Shown piece by piece: positions 43,023 to 50,351 of a stretch of DNA of 64,000 bases (position 1 is its first letter; the number at the start of each line of letters is the position of its first letter). The notes beneath the pieces are model-generated. The model was not told the DNA's origin, searched no databases, and saw only the letters and a list, made by a program, of their open reading frames with translations. The stretch is from assembly GCF_001046635.1 (NCBI RefSeq), contig NZ_KQ130452.1:67001-131000 (forward strand). Direction: 5' to 3'. The stretch is from Novosphingobium barchaimii LL02. Lineage in GTDB: Bacteria > Pseudomonadota > Alphaproteobacteria > Sphingomonadales > Sphingomonadaceae. The position numbers were made by a program, and so were the translations under genes.

Positions 43023-43073
43023 GGCTTCTCTCATGCGGGCGTGGCGGAATTGGTAGACGCGCTGGTTTTAGGT
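43023..43073 (+). repeat. attL: left 51-bp repeat with truncated tRNA-Leu
   Basis: The first 39 nt of tRNA-Leu (43035-43073), down to the anticodon loop, plus 12 bp of leader are identical to the right copy. After 43073 the sequence departs and no tRNA 3' half follows, so this copy cannot make a tRNA. Confidence 0.92.
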
Positions 43074-43161
43074 GACAGTTGCCAATTGTGGAATGTTACC
43101 CGATGCGGGACTATCCACACCGCGCAAGTCCGGGCTTTTCTTTACATCGCTGACAAACCCT

Positions 43162-43203
43162 TGAGGGGGCGCACTGGTACCGTAACGGGGGTGCGCCCCC
43201 TCA
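43162..43203. terminator. Strong hairpin near left end of element
   Basis: A perfect 13-bp stem (TGAGGGGGCGCAC) with a 16-nt loop and a weak T-containing tail lies between the truncated tRNA and the RNA polymerase fragments. It would stop read-through from the tRNA promoter. Confidence 0.6.
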
Positions 43204-43237
43204 TTGCGTTTTCCACAGGCTTGTCCACCCATCCTCA

Positions 43238-43266
43238 TTGAACACTTGCCGCATGATGACTATCCA
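43238..43266 (+). promoter_or_regulatory. Candidate host-type promoter before phage RNA polymerase fragment
   Basis: TTGAAC (43238-43243) and TATCCA (43261-43266) are separated by 17 bp, 36 bp before the first phage frame. In T7-like phages the RNA polymerase gene is read by host polymerase, so a host promoter is expected here. Confidence 0.4.
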
Positions 43267-43301
43267 CCATCGGCAATGATCCCACATAAGCGAGGCCAAA
43301 A

Positions 43302-43478
43302 ATGGAGCTAGTGATGAACCTTTCCAACGCCGCAAATCTCGCCCAGCAGGCCCTCGAAGCGCAGACCCTCCAGGACGGACGGGATCGTTTTACGGCCAGG
43401 ACGTTGGCCGACGTGAAGCGGGGAAACCTGGTCGGCTATGTCGAAGGAGGAGCGCCTCGCCCGCTCAAGGCAGCGTAG
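43302..43478 (+). pseudogene. N-terminal fragment of phage RNA polymerase
   Basis: This 58-residue frame contains ANLAQQALEAQTLQDGRDRF, which lines up with the N-terminal region of T7 RNA polymerase (RLAREQLALE...GEARF). After about residue 45 the frame ends out of phase with the polymerase frame that begins at 43438. The simplest reading is a deletion that removed about 300 residues between the two parts and shifted the frame. It overlaps the next frame by 41 bp. Confidence 0.6.
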
Positions 43479-44805
43479 GGCCGTCAGCCTCGTGATCAAG
43501 GCCCAGGGTGTGGACGCAACCACGTTCACCAACGACATCGCGGTGGCCAATGAGCTGGCAACGCATGAGGCCTTCTACATGCCCCACTCGCTGGACTTCC
43601 GTGGCCGCACCTACGCCGTGCCCTACTTCAACCACCAGCGCAGCGACCACATGAAGGCGCTCTTCCGTTTCGCCGACGGCGTGGCGCTGGGACCTGACGG
43701 CGGGCGCTGGCTCAAAATCCACCTAGCCAACTGCGGCGACTTCGGGAAGATGAGCAAGAAGCCTTTCGACGCCCGCGAGGCCTGGGTGGACGAGAACCAC
43801 GACAAGATCATCGCCACGGTCATGGACCCGGAGGCAATGGTGGACTGGTGGACGGAAGCCGACAGCCCCTTCTGCTTCCTCCAGGCGTGCTTCGAGTACA
43901 CCGAGTGGTACGAGAGCGGCTTCGACCCCGAGTTCGTCTCGACCATCGCGGGCGCGGCTGACGGGTCCTGCTCGGGCCTCCAGCACTACTCGGCCATCAC
44001 CCGGTCGGAGGAGGAGGCCTTCCACGTCAATCTGCTCCCCCGGCCCGACGTGGGCGACATCTACCAAGTGACCGCCGATCAGGCCGTTCCGACCCTCCAG
44101 GCCGCTGCGGCCCAGGGCGACGTGACGAGCCAGATCATTCTCGACAATGGCTTCGGTCGCTCCGAAGTGAAGCGGAACGTGATGACCTACTTCTATGGAT
44201 CGGCCCGGTTCGGGATGCGCGACCAGCACATGGCCGACCTGATGCGTCCCTTGGGCGACAAGGTGGCGATGGGCGAGCTGGCGGCGCACCTCTACCTGGT
44301 CATCTCCGAAGGCGTGAAGGTCGTGTATCTCGACAACATGACGGCCCTGGTCGACGAGACCAACGAGAGGGCGTCCGTCGAGGGCATCATCAAGCGCATG
44401 GCCCTCCTGTGTCAGGAGCTGGGCATCATCATCATGCTGCTCTGCCACCTCGCCACCCCGGACGGGAAACCGCACGAGGAGGGTGGTCAGGTGAGCCTCC
44501 GGCACTTCAAGGGCTCGCGGGCCATGGGTGCCTTCCCGCACTACTCATTCGGCCTGGAGCGCAACACCCAGCACGAGGTCCCGGAATACCGGAACTACTC
44601 GATCCTGCGCTGCGTGAAGGACCGATACACGGGACGCTATAACGGCGCCACGTTGACCCTGCACTACGACGTCGGCTCCGGCCAGCTCGTCGAACGTGAC
44701 CTCCCCGAGGACTACTACGGGGACCGCGAAGAGGGCGGCGGTGGCTACAAGCGCGGCAGCATCCCGCCATGGGAAACGGACGACGCTGCTCCTCTGGAGC
44801 TTTAG
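43438..44805 (+). CDS. Chimeric T7-like RNA polymerase / replicative helicase remnant
   Basis: This 455-residue frame joins two phage proteins. Residues 1 to about 285 match the middle of T7-type single-subunit RNA polymerase: DFRGRTYAVPYFNHQ, GAADGSCSGLQHYSAI (catalytic Asp) and EVKRNVMTYFYGSARFG (catalytic Lys and Tyr). The C-terminal part with the second catalytic Asp (HDSFG motif) is gone. From about residue 290 the sequence is the end of a gp4-like primase-helicase: VVYLDNMTALVDE, LLCHLATPDGKPHEEGG and RHFKGSRAMGAFPHYSFGLER. The junction at about 44280-44320 is in frame, with no stop. Neither half can be active as in the phage. Confidence 0.88.
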   Translation: MSKEERLARSRQRRAVSLVIKAQGVDATTFTNDIAVANELATHEAFYMPHSLDFRGRTYAVPYFNHQRSDHMKALFRFADGVALGPDGGRWLKIHLANCGDFGKMSKKPFDAREAWVDENHDKIIATVMDPEAMVDWWTEADSPFCFLQACFEYTEWYESGFDPEFVSTIAGAADGSCSGLQHYSAITRSEEEAFHVNLLPRPDVGDIYQVTADQAVPTLQAAAAQGDVTSQIILDNGFGRSEVKRNVMTYFYGSARFGMRDQHMADLMRPLGDKVAMGELAAHLYLVISEGVKVVYLDNMTALVDETNERASVEGIIKRMALLCQELGIIIMLLCHLATPDGKPHEEGGQVSLRHFKGSRAMGAFPHYSFGLERNTQHEVPEYRNYSILRCVKDRYTGRYNGATLTLHYDVGSGQLVERDLPEDYYGDREEGGGGYKRGSIPPWETDDAAPLEL

Positions 44806-44827
44806 CGCGCTCTCCCCGAAAAGCAAA

Positions 44828-44864
44828 AAGCGGCGGAATGGTCTACGAAACCTTTCCGCCGCTT
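44828..44864 (+). terminator. Hairpin after the polymerase/helicase chimera
   Basis: A perfect 11-bp stem (AAGCGGCGGAA) with a 15-nt loop follows the stop by 22 bp. It has no T run, so it may be an RNA-processing site or a phage-polymerase terminator instead of a host terminator. Confidence 0.55.
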
Positions 44865-44893
44865 CAGTTGTAGAGAGAACAGGGAGAGACTCC
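44863..44893 (+). promoter_or_regulatory. Weak phage-type promoter-like copy
   Basis: GGGAGAGACTCC at 44882-44893 is the same as in the copy at 45001, preceded by AGAGAACA. The initiation half is like T7 (GGGAGA) but the recognition half is poorly matched. Confidence 0.35.
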
Positions 44894-44984
44894 TGCAACC
44901 CTCTAATGTCGCTCCGAGCGGAGACTGCTTAGATCGCGCTCGTCACTTTTGGGTACATAGTCGATGCGCAGAGACACGCTTCGA

Positions 44985-45012
44985 CTACATCTCAACTAAC
45001 GGGAGAGACTCC
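44985..45012 (+). promoter_or_regulatory. T3/T7-like phage RNA polymerase promoter
   Basis: The segment CTCAACTAACGGGAGA (44991-45006) closely resembles the T3/T7 class promoter end CTCACTAWAGGGAGA. It stands between the helicase and DNA polymerase remnants, where T7-like phages carry such promoters. With the polymerase destroyed it is probably silent. Confidence 0.55.
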
Positions 45013-45107
45013 GCTTGTCGAGTTTAGGAGGGCAAAGAATTTGCTATCCTCTGCGCCTCCTTTGGTACACTGCAGGAGCCAGGAGACGGCGCCATGCAGT
45101 CTGCAAA

Positions 45108-45287
45108 TTAGTTGCCAGCCACGCCTTTTGCCATCTCTGTAGAGGTTTTGGTGAAGGTCGCCTTAAGCTGTTCGCCCATGCCCTGCATGGCTGCGATGGC
45201 CGCGACAGCGATGAGAGCCGCGATGAGGCCGTACTCGATAGCAGTGGCGCCCTTTTCGTTGCGACGCAGCTTTTTGATGAAGCGCAT
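45108..45287 (-). CDS. Flp-type (type IVb) pilin
   Basis: This 59-residue frame encodes a complete Flp/Fap pilin. A basic leader (MRFIKKLRRNEKG) ends at the prepilin peptidase site G-A, followed by ATAIEYGLIAALIAVAAIAAM with the family's Glu-Tyr pair, and a short polar tail. A ribosome site (GGAG) lies 7 nt before the ATG. Flp pilins form tight-adherence pili together with tad genes, none of which is here. It lies on the opposite strand to all phage genes, between helicase and DNA polymerase remnants, as morons (accessory prophage genes) do. Confidence 0.9.
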   Translation of the reverse strand: MRFIKKLRRNEKGATAIEYGLIAALIAVAAIAAMQGMGEQLKATFTKTSTEMAKGVAGN

Positions 45288-45432
45288 TATAATCTCCGTA
45301 TCCCGATGTTACCCGAGCGGCACTCATCGAGCCCCGCTGAATGCATGTCTAAGCGATTCCATTTAAAAAACGGTAAATGCCGTCTTCACCTTCGCGGCCT
45401 CTCCGCGTTTTCCATGAGTAAGTACCCCTGAA

Positions 45433-46491
45433 ATGAGTTCCCCCTACGCGGGGAGGACGTTCGTCTTCGACATCGAGACCAACGGCCTCCTCGAAGCGGT
45501 CACGCGCGTGCATTGCGCTGTCGTGATCGACGTCGAGACCGACGAGGTCTTCGACTTCAAGCCGAACGAGATCGGCAAGTTCCTGGAGATGTATACGACG
45601 CCAGGAATCATCTGGGTCGGGCACAACATCATCGGCTACGACTACCAGGTCATCGAGAAAATCTACGGCCTCAAGCCGCCTCCAGCCCATTTTACTCTCG
45701 ACACGCTCAATCTCGCCCGCCTCGTCTTCAGTGATCAGAAAAACACCGACGTCAAGGTCGCAGCGAAGTGGAAGAAATACCTGGCCGCCAAGGCCAAGTG
45801 GGACACCAACGAGCGCTACCGCATAGAGCGGGAGGAGGCTGACGGCATCGTTGGCCCGCCTTCCGCGCCGTTCCCATCCAAGGCCCCGAAAGAGTTCCCC
45901 GGCTGGATGTGCGGCCTGCACACCTTGGAGAGCTGGGGCTGGGGCCTCGCAGCAGGCGCGGGTAAGGGCGACGGGCTCGACATCGGAACCCGCACCCAGA
46001 ACGGCCTAGTCGACGGTGCCATGGGCGCCGTGGCTGGCGCCGCACTTCCAGTAGCGTTCGACCGCGCTGGGGCCGCAGTCCGCATCGTCACGCTGCAGGT
46101 CAATTCGGACGGCTCCGTACTGGGCCTCAAGCCCTCCACAGGAACCTCGCACAGTGCCGTCGTTGGGGAAATCCCGGCCAGCGCCTCCAACTACCTTTCA
46201 GGGTCTGTAATAGGCGATCGTGACATTCTGGGCCTGGCGGACCTCGACACCATCCCGGCGTCCATCGAAGAGGTCTCTGTGGTCGGCTACATGTCCAAAA
46301 CGGACGCCCCCGCACGCGCCATGTACCTGGGCGTTGTCTCAGGCGGTACGACGTCGGACGGCGAGCCTCAAAACCTCAACGCTTCGGGATTCCGCCACGA
46401 GCGCGGCATGAATGTCGACCCCAACACGGGGGCACCTTGGACGGTTAGCGCCGTGAACGCCCTCCAGCTGCAGCCTAAGGTCGCCAGCTGA
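45433..46491 (+). CDS. Chimera of phage DNA polymerase exonuclease domain and a probable virion protein
   Basis: Residues 1 to about 172 match the 3'-5' exonuclease part of T7-type DNA polymerase: VFDIETNGLLEAVTRVHC (motif I Asp13/Glu15), WVGHNIIGYDYQVI (Asp70) and CGLHTLESWGW. At about residue 172 (near 45949) the match stops. The rest (AAGAGKGDGLDIGTRTQNG to the end) has the Gly/Ser/Ala-rich beta character of a phage structural protein and ends MNVDPNTGAPWTVSAVNALQ. The polymerase palm and fingers are missing. The 352-residue frame is open throughout. The identity of the second half is inferred from composition and position. Confidence 0.72.
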   Translation: MSSPYAGRTFVFDIETNGLLEAVTRVHCAVVIDVETDEVFDFKPNEIGKFLEMYTTPGIIWVGHNIIGYDYQVIEKIYGLKPPPAHFTLDTLNLARLVFSDQKNTDVKVAAKWKKYLAAKAKWDTNERYRIEREEADGIVGPPSAPFPSKAPKEFPGWMCGLHTLESWGWGLAAGAGKGDGLDIGTRTQNGLVDGAMGAVAGAALPVAFDRAGAAVRIVTLQVNSDGSVLGLKPSTGTSHSAVVGEIPASASNYLSGSVIGDRDILGLADLDTIPASIEEVSVVGYMSKTDAPARAMYLGVVSGGTTSDGEPQNLNASGFRHERGMNVDPNTGAPWTVSAVNALQLQPKVAS

Positions 46492-46742
46492 TGGCAGGCG
46501 AGTATCGCATCAACCAGGCGAGCGCGGAGATAGCTGCGGCTATCGAAGGCCCGGCCAAGGTCAGCCAGCTTAATGCTGAAGTCGCGGCCACCTTCACAGC
46601 TCCGGTCCGGGTCCACCATATCAGCGCCGAGAGTGCTCAGGTCTTCGACCGTCCCGTGCGGGTCAGTGCGGTGTTTGTCGAGGTCGTGCGCTCCATTGCT
46701 GATCGGATGAGCCGCAGGCGTCCGATTGCATTCATACCCTAG
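46491..46742 (+). CDS. Small phage protein with short repeats
   Basis: This 83-residue frame overlaps the previous stop by one base (TGATG). It holds three imperfect repeats of about 20 residues of the form VxQLNAEVAATFTAPVR, HHISAESAQVFDRPVR and SAVFVEVV. No catalytic motif or membrane segment is seen. Its place after the structural fragment suggests a minor tail or neck protein; this is inferred only from order. Confidence 0.6.
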   Translation: MAGEYRINQASAEIAAAIEGPAKVSQLNAEVAATFTAPVRVHHISAESAQVFDRPVRVSAVFVEVVRSIADRMSRRRPIAFIP

Positions 46743-46752
46743 AGAAAACCGC

Positions 46753-46977
46753 ATGTCCCAAGACGACACGATCGTCATCGAGCGGCTAACCCGCGTCGAA
46801 ACCAAGATCGACTTCATCATCGAGCGCGATCAGAAGACCGCCGAGACGCTGGAAGACCACGATATTCGGATCGCACGCCTCGAAAGCAGCTACAAAATCC
46901 TCGCCACCATTGGCGCGATCCTACTGTTCATTGCCACTTTCTTCCAGGACTGGATTAAAGTCCACCTGTTAGGGTAA
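46753..46977 (+). CDS. Phage holin/XhlA-like membrane protein
   Basis: This 74-residue protein has a charged, probably coiled-coil N-terminal part (VIERLTRVETKIDFIIERDQ) and one membrane segment near the C-terminus (ILATIGAILLFIATFFQDW). That plan matches XhlA-type phage accessory lysis proteins. The start at 46753 (MSQDD) was preferred over an in-frame ATG 27 bp upstream that overlaps the previous gene. A terminator follows. Confidence 0.62.
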   Translation: MSQDDTIVIERLTRVETKIDFIIERDQKTAETLEDHDIRIARLESSYKILATIGAILLFIATFFQDWIKVHLLG

Positions 46978-46989
46978 GGCGCCTAAGAG

Positions 46990-47015
46990 ACCCCTCACGC
47001 GAGGGGTTTCTTTTC
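46990..47015 (+). terminator. Intrinsic terminator after holin-like gene
   Basis: A short stem ACCCCTC/GAGGGGT with loop ACGC (extended by AGA/TTT) is followed by TTTCTTTT, giving a normal host-type terminator. Confidence 0.8.
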
Positions 47016-47027
47016 GATTGGCAACAT

Positions 47028-47072
47028 TTGACAATCGGGAACCATTGCCATACGTGTACGTTTGTACGCAGT
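47028..47072 (+). promoter_or_regulatory. Promoter and possible operator of the regulator-integrase unit
   Basis: TTGACA (47028-47033) is followed after 17 bp by a weak -10 TACGTG (47051-47056). A direct repeat TGTACG-TT-TGTACG overlaps the start region and could be an operator for the MarR-like protein. Confidence 0.45.
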
Positions 47073-47125
47073 GAGGGCACGTAAAAGGCCCGGCTGCTGC
47101 CGGGTCGCCCAACTGAGGGGTAGTT

Positions 47126-47470
47126 ATGACTGACGAAGAACGCATTGCGATCCGAAAACTATACCGTGCCCAGCGCCAGGTGAGAGCGTCGATAGGCCCT
47201 CAAGTCCCGTCGCAGGTCGTCCAGGCTTTCCTGGCGGTCGCAGACAACGAAGGTCTGACCCTCACAGAGCTGGCGGACATCCTGGGGACCAACGTCTCCA
47301 CCGCAAGCCGCCAGATGCTCGACCTGAGCGACCGTAACCGAAAGATGGAAGCAGGCCACAACCTGATCTCCCGCACGCCAGACCCAATGAACCTGCGGGT
47401 CAACCGCTACACCTTAACCCCCAAGGGCCGCATCCTCATCCAGGAGCTGGCTGAAACCATGAAGGACTGA
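47126..47470 (+). CDS. MarR-like winged-helix regulator
   Basis: This 114-residue protein carries a winged helix-turn-helix (GLTLTELADILGTNVSTASRQMLDL at about residues 45-70) and a wing with RYTLTPKGRILIQE, as in MarR proteins. It stands between the phage genes and the integrase, with its own promoter, so it may control integrase expression or act as the prophage repressor. It is shorter than typical MarR proteins and may lack part of the dimer helix. Confidence 0.7.
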   Translation: MTDEERIAIRKLYRAQRQVRASIGPQVPSQVVQAFLAVADNEGLTLTELADILGTNVSTASRQMLDLSDRNRKMEAGHNLISRTPDPMNLRVNRYTLTPKGRILIQELAETMKD

Positions 47471-47476
47471 CCTAGA

Positions 47477-47683
47477 ATGGCGATTTACGCAGACAAGCGT
47501 GACGGCAAGCTGACCGGGCGGTTCCGCGTCGAGCTGCAGAACGGCACCGAGCGGTACCGCAAGCGTCACGATAGCATGGCGGAAGCTGAAGCGGACGAGG
47601 GGCGCGTCAAGGCGGCCTGGGACGCTGGGGAGAGCGCTAAGGACGCTGCGCCGCTGCCTTCGGCCAAAAGAAGGGCTGCCTGA
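47477..47683 (+). CDS. Integrase N-terminal (arm-binding) fragment
   Basis: This 68-residue frame resembles the N-terminal DNA-binding domain of phage integrases (AIYADKRDGKLTGRFRVELQ). It ends 15 bp before the main integrase frame, which is one frame away (-1). The two frames are both open only between 47641 and 47683, so a single shift there would join them. This could be a frameshift mutation or, less likely, programmed recoding. Confidence 0.55.
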   Translation: MAIYADKRDGKLTGRFRVELQNGTERYRKRHDSMAEAEADEGRVKAAWDAGESAKDAAPLPSAKRRAA

Positions 47684-47697
47684 CGTTCCAAGAGGGC

Positions 47698-48582
47698 GTG
47701 GAGGCTGCTGAAGGCATCCTATGGGCGGATGCGGACACCAGGGACATCGCTTGGTCGCGCCTGCGGTCCTGCGTGGACTTCTTGGGTGGCAAACGTGACC
47801 TAGACGACCTGAAGACCACAGACCTCGACAGGCTCCGTCAGCAACTCAAGAAGGACGGGAGGGCCGATGCGACGGTCAACCGCTTCCTCTCGTGTCTCAG
47901 GACCTTCCTGACGTGGTGCAAGGCCCGTGAGTACCGAACCCTCCCGGTCAACAAGGACACGATTGTGTTCCCATGGATCAAGGAGAAGGGCGGTCGCCTC
48001 CGGTGGATCACCTACGAGGAGGAGCTGCGGCTGTTGAGCTTGATGCCCGAGAACGTCGCCAAACTCGTTCGGGTGGCCTTGGATACCGGATGCCGCCGTG
48101 ACGAGCTGCTGACGGCCCGCCTGGACCAGCTGAACGGAAATAGCCTGCACCTCTACAAGACGAAGAACGACGAGAGCCGCCACGTCCCGCTCCTTCCCGA
48201 GACGGCGGCGACCCTCCGGGAGCTGATCGAAACCAAGACGATGCCCACACAGCGCAACCTTCGGTCCTGGTGGGACCGGGCCAAGGATCGCATGGGCTTA
48301 GGGGCTGATGAGGAGTTCGTCTTCCACACATGCCGCCATACGCGGGCTGTACGCCTTGTTGACGCGGGGATTGACGTACTACTCATCAAGGAACTACTGG
48401 GCCACAAACGGATAGAGACCACACTGCGTTACGCCAAGGTGAGACCACAAAACCTTGAGCGTGTCGTCGATCGTGTGGGGGAACTTGACCGGGCGGAACG
48501 TGAAAAAGCGCAGAAATCTGCGGCTCCCCACGTCCCCCCACAGTCCCCCCTCGGTGGGGAAATCGTCAGTTTGGCGGCTTAG
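47698..48582 (+). CDS. int: Tyrosine site-specific recombinase (phage integrase), core and catalytic domains
   Basis: This 294-residue frame starting at GTG has a core-binding domain (DGRADATVNRFLSCLRTFLTW) and the catalytic domain with all residues expected: Arg in ALDTGCRRDELL, Lys in KTKNDESRH, His-x-x-Arg in HTCRHTRAV, His in LLGHKRIE, and the nucleophile Tyr in TTLRYAKV. The N-terminal arm-binding part is in another frame upstream. The gene ends 28 bp before the right repeat, the usual place for an integrase beside its att site. Confidence 0.9.
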   Translation: MEAAEGILWADADTRDIAWSRLRSCVDFLGGKRDLDDLKTTDLDRLRQQLKKDGRADATVNRFLSCLRTFLTWCKAREYRTLPVNKDTIVFPWIKEKGGRLRWITYEEELRLLSLMPENVAKLVRVALDTGCRRDELLTARLDQLNGNSLHLYKTKNDESRHVPLLPETAATLRELIETKTMPTQRNLRSWWDRAKDRMGLGADEEFVFHTCRHTRAVRLVDAGIDVLLIKELLGHKRIETTLRYAKVRPQNLERVVDRVGELDRAEREKAQKSAAPHVPPQSPLGGEIVSLAA

Positions 48583-48610
48583 GCAGTCAGAAAAAATGTA
48601 GAGTTTTCAA

Positions 48611-48661
48611 GGCTTCTCTCATGCGGGCGTGGCGGAATTGGTAGACGCGCTGGTTTTAGGT
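48611..48661 (+). repeat. attR: right 51-bp repeat inside the intact tRNA-Leu
   Basis: This is identical to 43023-43073 and forms the leader and first 39 nt of the functional tRNA-Leu. The homology continues partly upstream (GAGTTTTC, then two extra bases), as if the phage carried a longer mimic of the tRNA leader. Confidence 0.92.
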
Positions 48662-48707
48662 ACCAGTATCGAAAGATGTGGGGGTTCGAGTCCCTTCGCC
48701 CGCACCA
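48623..48707 (+). tRNA. tRNA-Leu (UAG), intact copy
   Basis: The 85-nt sequence has acceptor GCGGGCG/CGCCCGC, a D arm, anticodon stem CTGGT/ACCAG with loop TTTAGGT (anticodon TAG), a long variable arm typical of leucine tRNAs, T-loop GGTTCGAGTCC, discriminator A and encoded CCA. Its 5' half up to the anticodon loop lies in the element's att repeat. Confidence 0.97.
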
Positions 48708-48782: not shown

Positions 48783-50351
48783 ATGCAGATCGTCGAAACG
48801 ACCAACGAAGGCCTGAAGCGCGCCTACACGGTCACCATCCCCGCCTCGGCCATCACCGCGAAGATTGAAGGTGAGGTCAAGAAGATCGCGCCGCAGGTGA
48901 AGATGCCCGGCTTCCGCGCCGGCAAGGTTCCCGTGAACCTCGTCAAGAAGCTGCATGGCCCGGCGATCCACCAGGAAGCGCTGAACACCTCGATTCGCGA
49001 AGCCATGGACAAGCTGGTTGCCGACAATGCCCTGCGTCCGGCGATGAACCCCGACGTCCAGCTGACCGACGGCTACGAAGAAGGCAAGGATGCCGAGCTG
49101 ACCGTCAGCCTGGAAATCCTGCCCAAGATCGAAGCGCCCGCGCTTGACGGTCTTAAGCTCGACAAGCTGACCGTTGCGGTCGCTGACGACGCCGTGACCG
49201 AAGCTGTGGAGCGTATCGCCACCCAGCAGCAGCGTTTCGAGACCAAGGACGGCGAGGCCGCCGACGGCGACCAGGTCATCTGCGACTTCACCGGCAAGCA
49301 CGACGGCGTCGAGTTCGACGGCGGCAAGGCCGAGAAGCAGCCGATCGTGATCGGTTCGGGCCGCCTGATCCCCGGTTTCGAGGAGCAGCTGGTCGGCATG
49401 AAGGCCGGCGATGACCGCGTCATCACCGTCACCTTCCCTGAGGACTACCCGGCCGAGAACCTCGCCGGCAAGGAAGTCACCTTCGACATCCTCGCCCACG
49501 AGATCAAGGCGCCCGCCGAATCGAAGATCGACGACGACTTCGCCAAGGAACTGGGCCTGGAAAGCCTGGAGCAGCTCACCGGCCTGCTGCGCGGCCAGCT
49601 TGAGCAGGAAACTGCCGGCCTGACCCGCACCGCCATGAAGCGCTCGCTGCTTGACCAGCTGGCTGCCGGCCATGACTTTGACGTGCCGCCGACCATGGTG
49701 GAAGCCGAATTCTCGCAGATCTGGCAGCAGCTCATCCAGGAAGCGCAGAGCGAGGAAGATCCCGCCGCTGCCCTGGAAGAGATTGAAGCCGAGAAGGACG
49801 ATTACCGCAAGATCGCCGAGCGCCGCGTGCGTCTGGGCCTGCTCCTGTCGGAAATCGGCCAGGCCAACGGCGTCGAAGTGACGGCTCAGGAAATGCAGAT
49901 GCTGGTCGGCCAGGCTGCCCAGCAGTACCGCCCGGAAGATCGCCAGCGTTTCTTCGAATACGTCCAGCAGGACCCGATGATGGCAGCCCAGCTGCGCGCG
50001 CCTCTCTATGAGGACAAGGTCGTCGACTTCCTGATCGAGAAGGCTGACGTCACCGAGCGCGAAGTGACCCGCGAAGAACTGCAGGCCGCCATCGAAGCCG
50101 ACACCGACGGCGAGACGCCGGCGGAAGGCAAGAAGCCGGCAAAGAAGGCTCCTGCCAAGAAGGCCGCCAAGAAGGCCGACGACGCAGAAGCTCCGGTCGA
50201 AGCGGAAGCCGAGGAGAAGCCAAAGAAGGCTCCTGCCAAGAAGGCCGCCGCCAAGAAGGCCGATGACGCTGTTGAAGGCGAAGCTGAAGAAGCAAAGCCC
50301 GCCAAGAAGGCCCCGGCCAAGAAGAAGGCCGCTGCCGACAAGGAGGACTGA
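48783..50351 (+). CDS. tig: Trigger factor with Lys/Ala-rich tail
   Basis: Trigger factor binds ribosomes and folds new proteins. The ribosome-docking motif is PGFRAGKVPVNL in the N-terminal domain. The FKBP-like prolyl isomerase domain is at about residues 155-245 (GDQVICDFTGKHDGVEFDGG, LIPGFEEQLVGMKAGD). The C-terminal chaperone domain follows. The protein is 522 residues, about 90 more than the E. coli form, because of a low-complexity tail from about residue 442 built of PAKKAPAKKA-type blocks. clpP and clpX lie downstream. Confidence 0.96.
   Translation: MQIVETTNEGLKRAYTVTIPASAITAKIEGEVKKIAPQVKMPGFRAGKVPVNLVKKLHGPAIHQEALNTSIREAMDKLVADNALRPAMNPDVQLTDGYEEGKDAELTVSLEILPKIEAPALDGLKLDKLTVAVADDAVTEAVERIATQQQRFETKDGEAADGDQVICDFTGKHDGVEFDGGKAEKQPIVIGSGRLIPGFEEQLVGMKAGDDRVITVTFPEDYPAENLAGKEVTFDILAHEIKAPAESKIDDDFAKELGLESLEQLTGLLRGQLEQETAGLTRTAMKRSLLDQLAAGHDFDVPPTMVEAEFSQIWQQLIQEAQSEEDPAAALEEIEAEKDDYRKIAERRVRLGLLLSEIGQANGVEVTAQEMQMLVGQAAQQYRPEDRQRFFEYVQQDPMMAAQLRAPLYEDKVVDFLIEKADVTEREVTREELQAAIEADTDGETPAEGKKPAKKAPAKKAAKKADDAEAPVEAEAEEKPKKAPAKKAAAKKADDAVEGEAEEAKPAKKAPAKKKAAADKED

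Follow-up and report, generated by a model that had tools for sequence, protein, structure and literature searches.

A stretch of 64,000 nucleotides from Novosphingobium barchaimii LL02 (contig NZ_KQ130452.1, positions 67001 to 131000; the window, in whose coordinates all LL02 positions are given) contains a short phage-derived element inserted at a tRNA-Leu gene (43023-48661). We consider it highly probable that this element is the remnant of a temperate T7-like phage of about 44 kb, dying by deletion, rather than a miniature element built for a purpose. As the defective remnant of such a prophage it adds a new case to a known class. The flanks are attachment sites at a locus which is empty in all relatives examined (6/6), and the phage genes inside are truncated or frame-broken, with homologues that are longer and unbroken elsewhere.

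An insertion at a tRNA-Leu gene

The first-pass annotation, made from the letters of the window, had reported exact 51-bp repeats around 5.6 kb. Indeed, 43023-43073 and 48611-48661 (both forward strand) are identical over 51 bp, and a repeat search of the window returned the family at 57 nt with 96% identity. From repeat start to repeat start the insertion measures 5,588 bp. Each repeat consists of 12 bp from upstream of tRNA-Leu and of the 5' half of the tRNA gene. A complete tRNA-Leu (anticodon TAG; 48623-48707, forward strand) was located by ARAGORN only at the right end, where the repeat starts 12 bp ahead of it. The left copy is the 5' half cut by the insertion; in relatives with an empty site it is contiguous with the right flank. 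When the right flank was used as a query, all 61 relatives matched; in the distant ones the match was often confined to the tRNA or to a portion of the following gene. The insertion site itself was compared in six relatives (G001, G033, G030, G026, G008 and G006). In each of them the left flank continues straight into the tRNA and the right flank without an insert; identity of the flanks to G001 was 94%. Because the site is empty in all six, the 5,588-bp stretch is an integrated element. A temperate T7-like phage would have integrated in the 5' half of the tRNA-Leu gene, presumably by its own tyrosine integrase, and the gene stayed whole because the phage brought a matching 5' half. At 48600-48640 the tRNA-Leu gene now depends on an upstream sequence supplied by the phage, and this sequence is not the one that stands ahead of the gene at the empty site.

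Truncated replication genes and a broken integrase

Family scans of the element recognized pieces of a T7-type RNA polymerase, a primase-helicase, a T7-like DNA polymerase and proteins of the families phrog_5880 and phrog_2448, as well as two small phage proteins, a MarR-like regulator and a tyrosine integrase. With the additional matches to T7 RNA polymerase, gp4 and DNA polymerase, this bore out the earlier statement that phage gene parts stand here in phage order. On a circular map the order is regulator, integrase, attachment site, RNA polymerase. The RNA polymerase was matched by profile phrog_414 at E 5e-86, so this identification is not due to chance, as the insertion is not in view of the empty site in relatives.

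The polymerase gene is present as a middle piece only, with an N-terminal part out of frame and no C-terminal part; an intact T7-like prophage of the Autographiviridae type would carry it whole. The first part of an ORF at 43302-43478 (+) resembles the N-terminus of phage RNA polymerases. It was placed by eye and by multiple alignment with nine polymerases and runs out of frame past the first junction; tblastn at E 1e-2 gave no match for it. The middle piece (43417-44290, +) forms the 455-codon ORF up to about residue 285. It matches phrog_414, PF00940 and T7 polymerase from residue 401 (residues 401-603 and on), and ends well before the C-terminus. The catalytic aspartate which we take to lie near the C-terminus in this family would then be absent. 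In nine other relatives the stop-to-stop polymerase frames had 811-905 codons, some of them starting or cut at a contig end; the 811-codon polymerase of L026 diverges from the others near its end.

Of the primase-helicase, related to T7 gp4, the C-terminal 170 codons with the natural stop remain (44293-44805, +). The piece starts downstream of a glycine-rich segment in the helicase of the relative G099, presumably the ATP-binding loop. The T7-like DNA polymerase is represented by a part of its N-terminal exonuclease domain (45433-45950, +; match to T7 DNA polymerase; 79% identity to the G099 polymerase). Judged by these truncations, none of the three polymerase and helicase pieces is likely to be a functioning enzyme.

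The attachment site is accompanied by integrase and MarR-like regulator, in that order, and the integrase frame is broken. Three-frame reading showed one frame up to about 47650 and another after about 47700, which places the break at 47630-47700 (+). The N-terminal frame (47477-47683, +) shares 79% identity with the beginning of the G099 integrase, and the catalytic part in the other frame (47698-48582, +) matches PF00589 at E 2.7e-18 and phrog_1. A single integrase frame is present in each of G099, L021, L031 and G029; therefore the break is not a conserved frameshift.

Junctions of probable deletions and the estimated size of the lost phage

Relatives were collected by scanning viral contigs with the 455-codon protein, which left 80 of 129 relative-encoding loci, and genome contigs, which gave five loci, three of them from Sphingomonas. 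Closest to the helicase piece among the kept loci was L029 from IMGVR_UViG_2706794921_000001 (G099; 36,961 bp), with 84.6% DNA and 90.6% protein identity over this piece (rounded, 85% and 91%) and 77% DNA identity over 45132-45949. G099 encodes a 722-codon DNA polymerase, an 814-codon virion protein, terminase, portal, scaffold, capsid, a regulator and a 371-codon integrase in one frame. Terminase, portal and capsid families were absent at E < 0.1 from the nine ORFs scanned in the LL02 element, whereas G099 has them. Helicase, DNA polymerase, virion protein and integrase are separate genes in G099, kilobases apart. Its helicase frame is open to the contig end; because the contig ends inside this gene, the RNA polymerase was not seen. 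Separate, longer homologues in G099 and other relatives were what the proposed search for full-length relatives across the junctions yielded.

The first-pass annotation had counted three junctions, two of them in frame. The junctions are real; their number is four, of which three are in frame and the first is not. Junction 1 (43390-43418, +) lies within the RNA polymerase. N-terminal and middle pieces are in different frames, a TGA stands at 43414-43416 in the downstream frame, and about 0.9-1 kb is gone. Homology of the middle piece to polymerases starts directly after this TGA, about seven codons ahead of the ATG of the 455-codon frame. Thus, this ATG is an internal methionine; the two long open frames noted before, 455 and 352 codons, do exist and are open, and only the start of the former does not hold. 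Junction 2 (44286-44294, +) joins RNA polymerase to primase-helicase in frame, its helicase side defined by DNA and its polymerase side by protein comparison. About 5 kb is gone; the two genes are 4.8-6.1 kb apart in the closest relatives. Junction 3 (45940-45955, +) joins DNA polymerase in frame to the virion protein, the two sides lying at about 34.6 kb and 15.6 kb in G099, i.e. about 19 kb is gone, and the aligned partners have few bases in common. The virion protein contributes about 45 internal codons (45949-46085, +; phrog_5880; 65% over 48 residues to the 814-codon G099 protein); we read their source as an internal virion protein, although the family itself is of unknown function. At junction 4 (46080-46092, +), again in frame, homology to G099 fades and a phrog_2448 match begins. 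The piece which follows (46086-46491, +) is the C-terminal part of a phage protein, tail-like by position. It matches positions 196-328 of the 335 in phrog_2448, a family of unknown function, and had protein matches in 10 phage records, hypothetical in those listed. By position, junction 4 may correspond to a deletion of about 13 kb. The 352-codon frame is therefore a three-part join across junctions 3 and 4.

Sized against the relatives, the deletions amount to about 1, 5, 19 and 13 kb, the last by position, in agreement with the earlier proposal of losses of several kilobases. The roughly 38 kb missing and the 5.6 kb present fit the spans of relatives: from RNA polymerase to the nearest integrase we measured 41.0 kb in G247, and 39.7 and 48.8 kb in G261, by pairing coordinates. 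In G261 (C1, 671040-760990; L191, L195, L200, L205) two T7-like prophages of the group are apparently adjacent in the same orientation.

From these comparisons the following course of events can be proposed. Four internal deletions would have removed about 38 kb, and with them the greater part of the genes for RNA polymerase, helicase and DNA polymerase as well as the head and packaging genes. The observed frame break also disrupted the integrase. What is left is most likely unable to replicate, to be packaged or to excise. Expression is still conceivable for the MarR-like regulator, a pilin and two small genes, whose frames are unbroken; at most, these may leave the host with remaining traits of a lysogen, for instance an additional pilin or immunity against phages of this kind.

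Open frames are expected after recent deletion

The open fused frames were the reason this element was selected, on the argument that a decayed prophage should gather stops. Neutral substitution was simulated in both fused frames (2,000 runs per level, no insertions or deletions). Both remained free of stops in 53% of runs at 1% substitution per site, 26% at 2%, 14% at 3% and 4% at 5%. The argument thus fails at low divergence. Changes were then polarized against G099 with outgroups in six pieces, a rough test with short alignments and few outgroups. Nonsynonymous and synonymous changes numbered 3 and 7 in LL02 against 5 and 11 in G099 for the helicase, 11 and 5 against 8 and 9 for the DNA polymerase, 3 and 8 against 2 and 4 for the small membrane protein, 10 and 5 against 14 and 9 for the regulator, 39 and 15 against 43 and 17 for the integrase, and 2 and 5 against 9 and 3 for the pilin. 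Summed, the ratio was equal on both sides (68:45 in LL02, 81:53 in G099); the DNA polymerase piece alone leans to relaxed change in LL02. Because the ratios are equal and both frames stay open in about half of the simulations at 1%, the open frames are no argument for maintenance. Stop-free frames are what very recent deletion, one of the two readings offered at first, predicts, and by simulation and rates such a deletion is sufficient. The two long frames would still be open because little time has passed, and the in-frame joins would have arisen by chance. More generally, a fused frame that is long and open does not indicate function at low divergence.

No fusion outside LL02 in the loci and genomes searched

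Alignments of the whole fused protein crossed the junction residue in many loci (e.g. L033, L037, L038, L041, L044, L063, L068 and L098). Therefore, its two pieces were searched apart. Among 212 loci, 119 matched: 56 with both pieces, 46 with the helicase only and 17 with the polymerase only, the single-piece loci arising in part from loci being cut. In none of the 56 loci with both pieces were RNA polymerase and helicase fused; the spacing was 3.0-6.5 kb and the nearest pair was 2,974 bases apart. The fusion was likewise absent from 195 genomes of the genus at E 1e-10. Seven of these had a polymerase- or helicase-like match, and G131, G133 and G244 had both, at separate places. The search for the same junctions in phage and bacterial genomes, suggested as a check by the first-pass annotation, thus found no shared junction in viral or genome contigs.

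The integrase matched seven of the 195 genus genomes at E 1e-50, G029 best with 50% identity. When 397 genomes of the family were searched with alignments, the integrase was found in four at E 1e-75 and the regulator in three at E 1e-12. In the three with both (G247, G261 and G485), polymerase and helicase were matched as well. The G485 helicase reads in two frames (L209, 4602-5004), and this prophage is perhaps another decaying member of the phage group. In the viral contigs, 2 of 201 stretches scanned for the integrase were confirmed, at about 40% identity. Stretches in G049 (L139) and in G103/G104 (L113-L117) served as search targets.

Leaving tRNA matches aside, the nearest named phages by DNA were Pseudomonas LUZ100 and phages of Rhizobium, Mesorhizobium and Limnohabitans; their matches, with 67-73% identity, all fell in the helicase and covered 3-6% of the element. 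The fused protein had 3,054 and the integrase 485 matches in phage records, all below 60% identity. The last piece of the 352-codon frame had no confirmed relative in the viral contigs and no DNA match in phages. None of 159 plasmid records spanned 80% of the element; the best among those listed were tRNA-end matches. A DNA search of 98 relatives returned 48 with a match, nearly all at host pilin genes; the others were the G029 regulator-integrase, a G049 polymerase and a few matches of about 35 bases.

A second reduced element

In G029 a stretch of 2.66 kb (contig C13, 46665-49361; L137, L138) is bounded by exact 39-bp repeats, 46665-46703 and 49323-49361, which consist of a tRNA-Arg 5' half. 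Of three ORFs scanned, a MarR-like regulator and a 368-codon integrase in one frame were recognized, the third was not. No polymerase match at E 1e-5 was found in the G029 genome. Like the LL02 element it is short, ends in regulator and integrase and is flanked by exact copies of a tRNA 5' half; it differs in length, tRNA gene, repeat length and the unbroken integrase, and in that regulator and integrase alone were recognized. By this comparison, strongly reduced forms arose at least twice in the phage group; both the site and the degree of reduction differ, as decay predicts. The intact integrase frame of G029 leaves small room for a mobile mini-element.

Intact small genes, a pilin and a 12-bp motif

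The MarR-like lysogeny regulator (47126-47470, +) matched phrog_9665 at E 2e-22 and is 65% identical to that of G099. Upstream of it are a small phage protein of unknown function (46491-46742, +; phrog_13560, E 5e-7) and a small protein with a hydrophobic stretch (46753-46977, +). The latter is 77% identical to its G099 counterpart and reached a holin family at E 0.03 only; possibly it is related to lysis. Sigma-70-like sites numbered 2 against 1.2 expected, terminator-like sites 14 against 5.1.

A complete Flp/Fap (Tad) pilin gene (45108-45287, -; PF04964, E 2.8e-18) lies between helicase and DNA polymerase on the opposite strand. In G099 a pilin is found at the same place and on the same strand, 83% identical over 52 residues. 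Both proteins begin with MRFIKKLRR, whereas all six host-genome pilins aligned begin with MKFLAKLRR. Because place, strand and this N-terminus are shared with G099, unlike the host pilins, we read the pilin as phage cargo. Between the LL02 and G099 pilins, dN was 0.187 and dS 0.949. A pilin scan of viral contigs confirmed 15 of 33 candidate loci, one of them G099. Ten adjoining genes from nine of the 14 other loci were scanned. Next to pilins we found terminase (L171, L173, L175 and L176), DNA polymerase (L182), primase-helicase (L178), endolysin (L177) and tail fibre (L181); of the two neighbours in L183, one matched a family of unknown function and the other none. Some of these pilins may still belong to host DNA next to a prophage. 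The LL02 pilin had no match at E 1e-5 among 50,697 phage records, and a literature search by exact phrases on phage pilins retrieved no paper. Flp pilins in Vibrio harveyi prophages are on record (PMC12482185). Since a phage-carried Flp pilin is seen both in the lineage of the element and in further viral contigs, it gives a modest hint at how Tad pili may be altered by phages.

The motif GGGAGAGACTCC occurs in two exact copies in the window, at 44882-44893 and 45001-45012 (both forward strand), both inside the element, against about 0.008 expected at equal bases. Possibly it is the start of promoters for the phage RNA polymerase, left behind without the polymerase. With two mismatches allowed, 2 sites were observed against 6.5 expected, i.e. 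below chance, and the motif was absent from all 190 loci examined; on both counts the promoter reading stays unproven.

Weighing the explanations

Several points weigh against decay by deletion. The junctions are known from assembled sequence and not from reads, the polymerase N-terminal ORF was recognized by a weak alignment, and junction 4 is based on a profile match and on position, as its last piece has no match in G099. Three in-frame joins out of four are somewhat lucky (about 0.11 at one in three each), and neither long fused frame contains a stop. In addition, the integrase is nearer to L021 (56%) than to G099 (48%). As the closest relative differs along the element, L021 being nearer at the integrase and G099 over helicase and DNA polymerase, the ancestor, like these phages, is mosaic; hence, the deletion sizes are estimates.

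Could the host have kept the remnant because pilin, regulator or small genes are of benefit, e.g. through changed Tad pili or immunity? The pilin is complete, its dN is far below its dS, and its polarized amino-acid changes are 2 in LL02 against 9 in G099; the regulator is complete as well. Yet the constraint measured is mostly older than the deletions. The truncated pieces do not change faster overall, the DNA polymerase alone leaning that way, which leaves too little time to tell, and the element is not at the site in the six relatives examined. We regard such domestication as improbable. To a narrower version we give equally little weight: a prophage pared to a lysogeny cassette and a Tad-pilin gene would persist since the pilin alters the host's Tad pili, and the G029 element would be a further reduced, maybe integrase-competent relative. 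If true, a phage pilin would change host Tad pili and, for example, block phages which use them.

A maintained satellite, the other reading offered at first, would keep attachment site, regulator and phage promoters and let a T7-like helper excise and package it. Regulator and attachment sites are intact, the two exact 12-bp motifs could be phage promoters, and a further small element, in G029, likewise ends in regulator and integrase and has an unbroken integrase frame. However, with the LL02 integrase split over two frames, mobility of its own is not to be expected; the RNA polymerase frame is broken too. What was retained are truncated replication genes, pieces of larger enzymes, and no recognizable satellite gene set. 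Neither the 195 genus genomes nor the 56 loci with both pieces, out of 212, share a junction or a recurring gene set, and the motif is missing from the 190 loci examined. A satellite is thus very improbable. Just as improbable is an assembly artefact, a chimera into which the reads of a complete prophage would have been collapsed. Four junctions are many for 5.6 kb, but the flanks and the two attachment sites are undamaged and agree with the relatives whose site is empty, the partners at junction 3 share few bases and the integrase break is a separate small lesion.

Decay by deletion accounts best for these observations, and the element is a clear snapshot of the death of a temperate T7-like prophage by large deletions and small frame lesions.

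Comparison with known systems

Integrative T7-like podoviruses are known, as the first-pass annotation stated. Pseudomonas LUZ100, Agrobacterium Pasto and Pelagibacter HTVC019P are temperate T7-like phages (PMC10134795), and the LL02 element resembles them in its T7-type RNA polymerase and in the order of MarR-like regulator, integrase and polymerase. According to the same source, the regulator of LUZ100 immediately precedes the integrase, which in turn lies upstream of the RNA polymerase; for Pelagibacter T7-like phages it mentions a tRNA-Leu sequence kept next to the integrase. In contrast to these phages the element has 5.6 of about 44 kb, no recognized head or packaging gene, no whole replication gene and a broken integrase frame, and it carries an Flp pilin; its DNA is 67% identical to LUZ100 over 6% of the element. 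Over helicase (91% protein identity) and DNA polymerase (79%) no relative closer than G099 was found, and G099 has the same pilin at the same place as well as the regulator-integrase end. It differs in its separate and widely spaced genes, in an integrase of 48% identity and in having no match to the last tail-like genes. Defective or grounded prophages have flanking attachment sites, truncated and frame-broken phage genes and a few intact cargo genes. From these the LL02 element differs in nothing essential; its in-frame joins are striking, yet not improbable.

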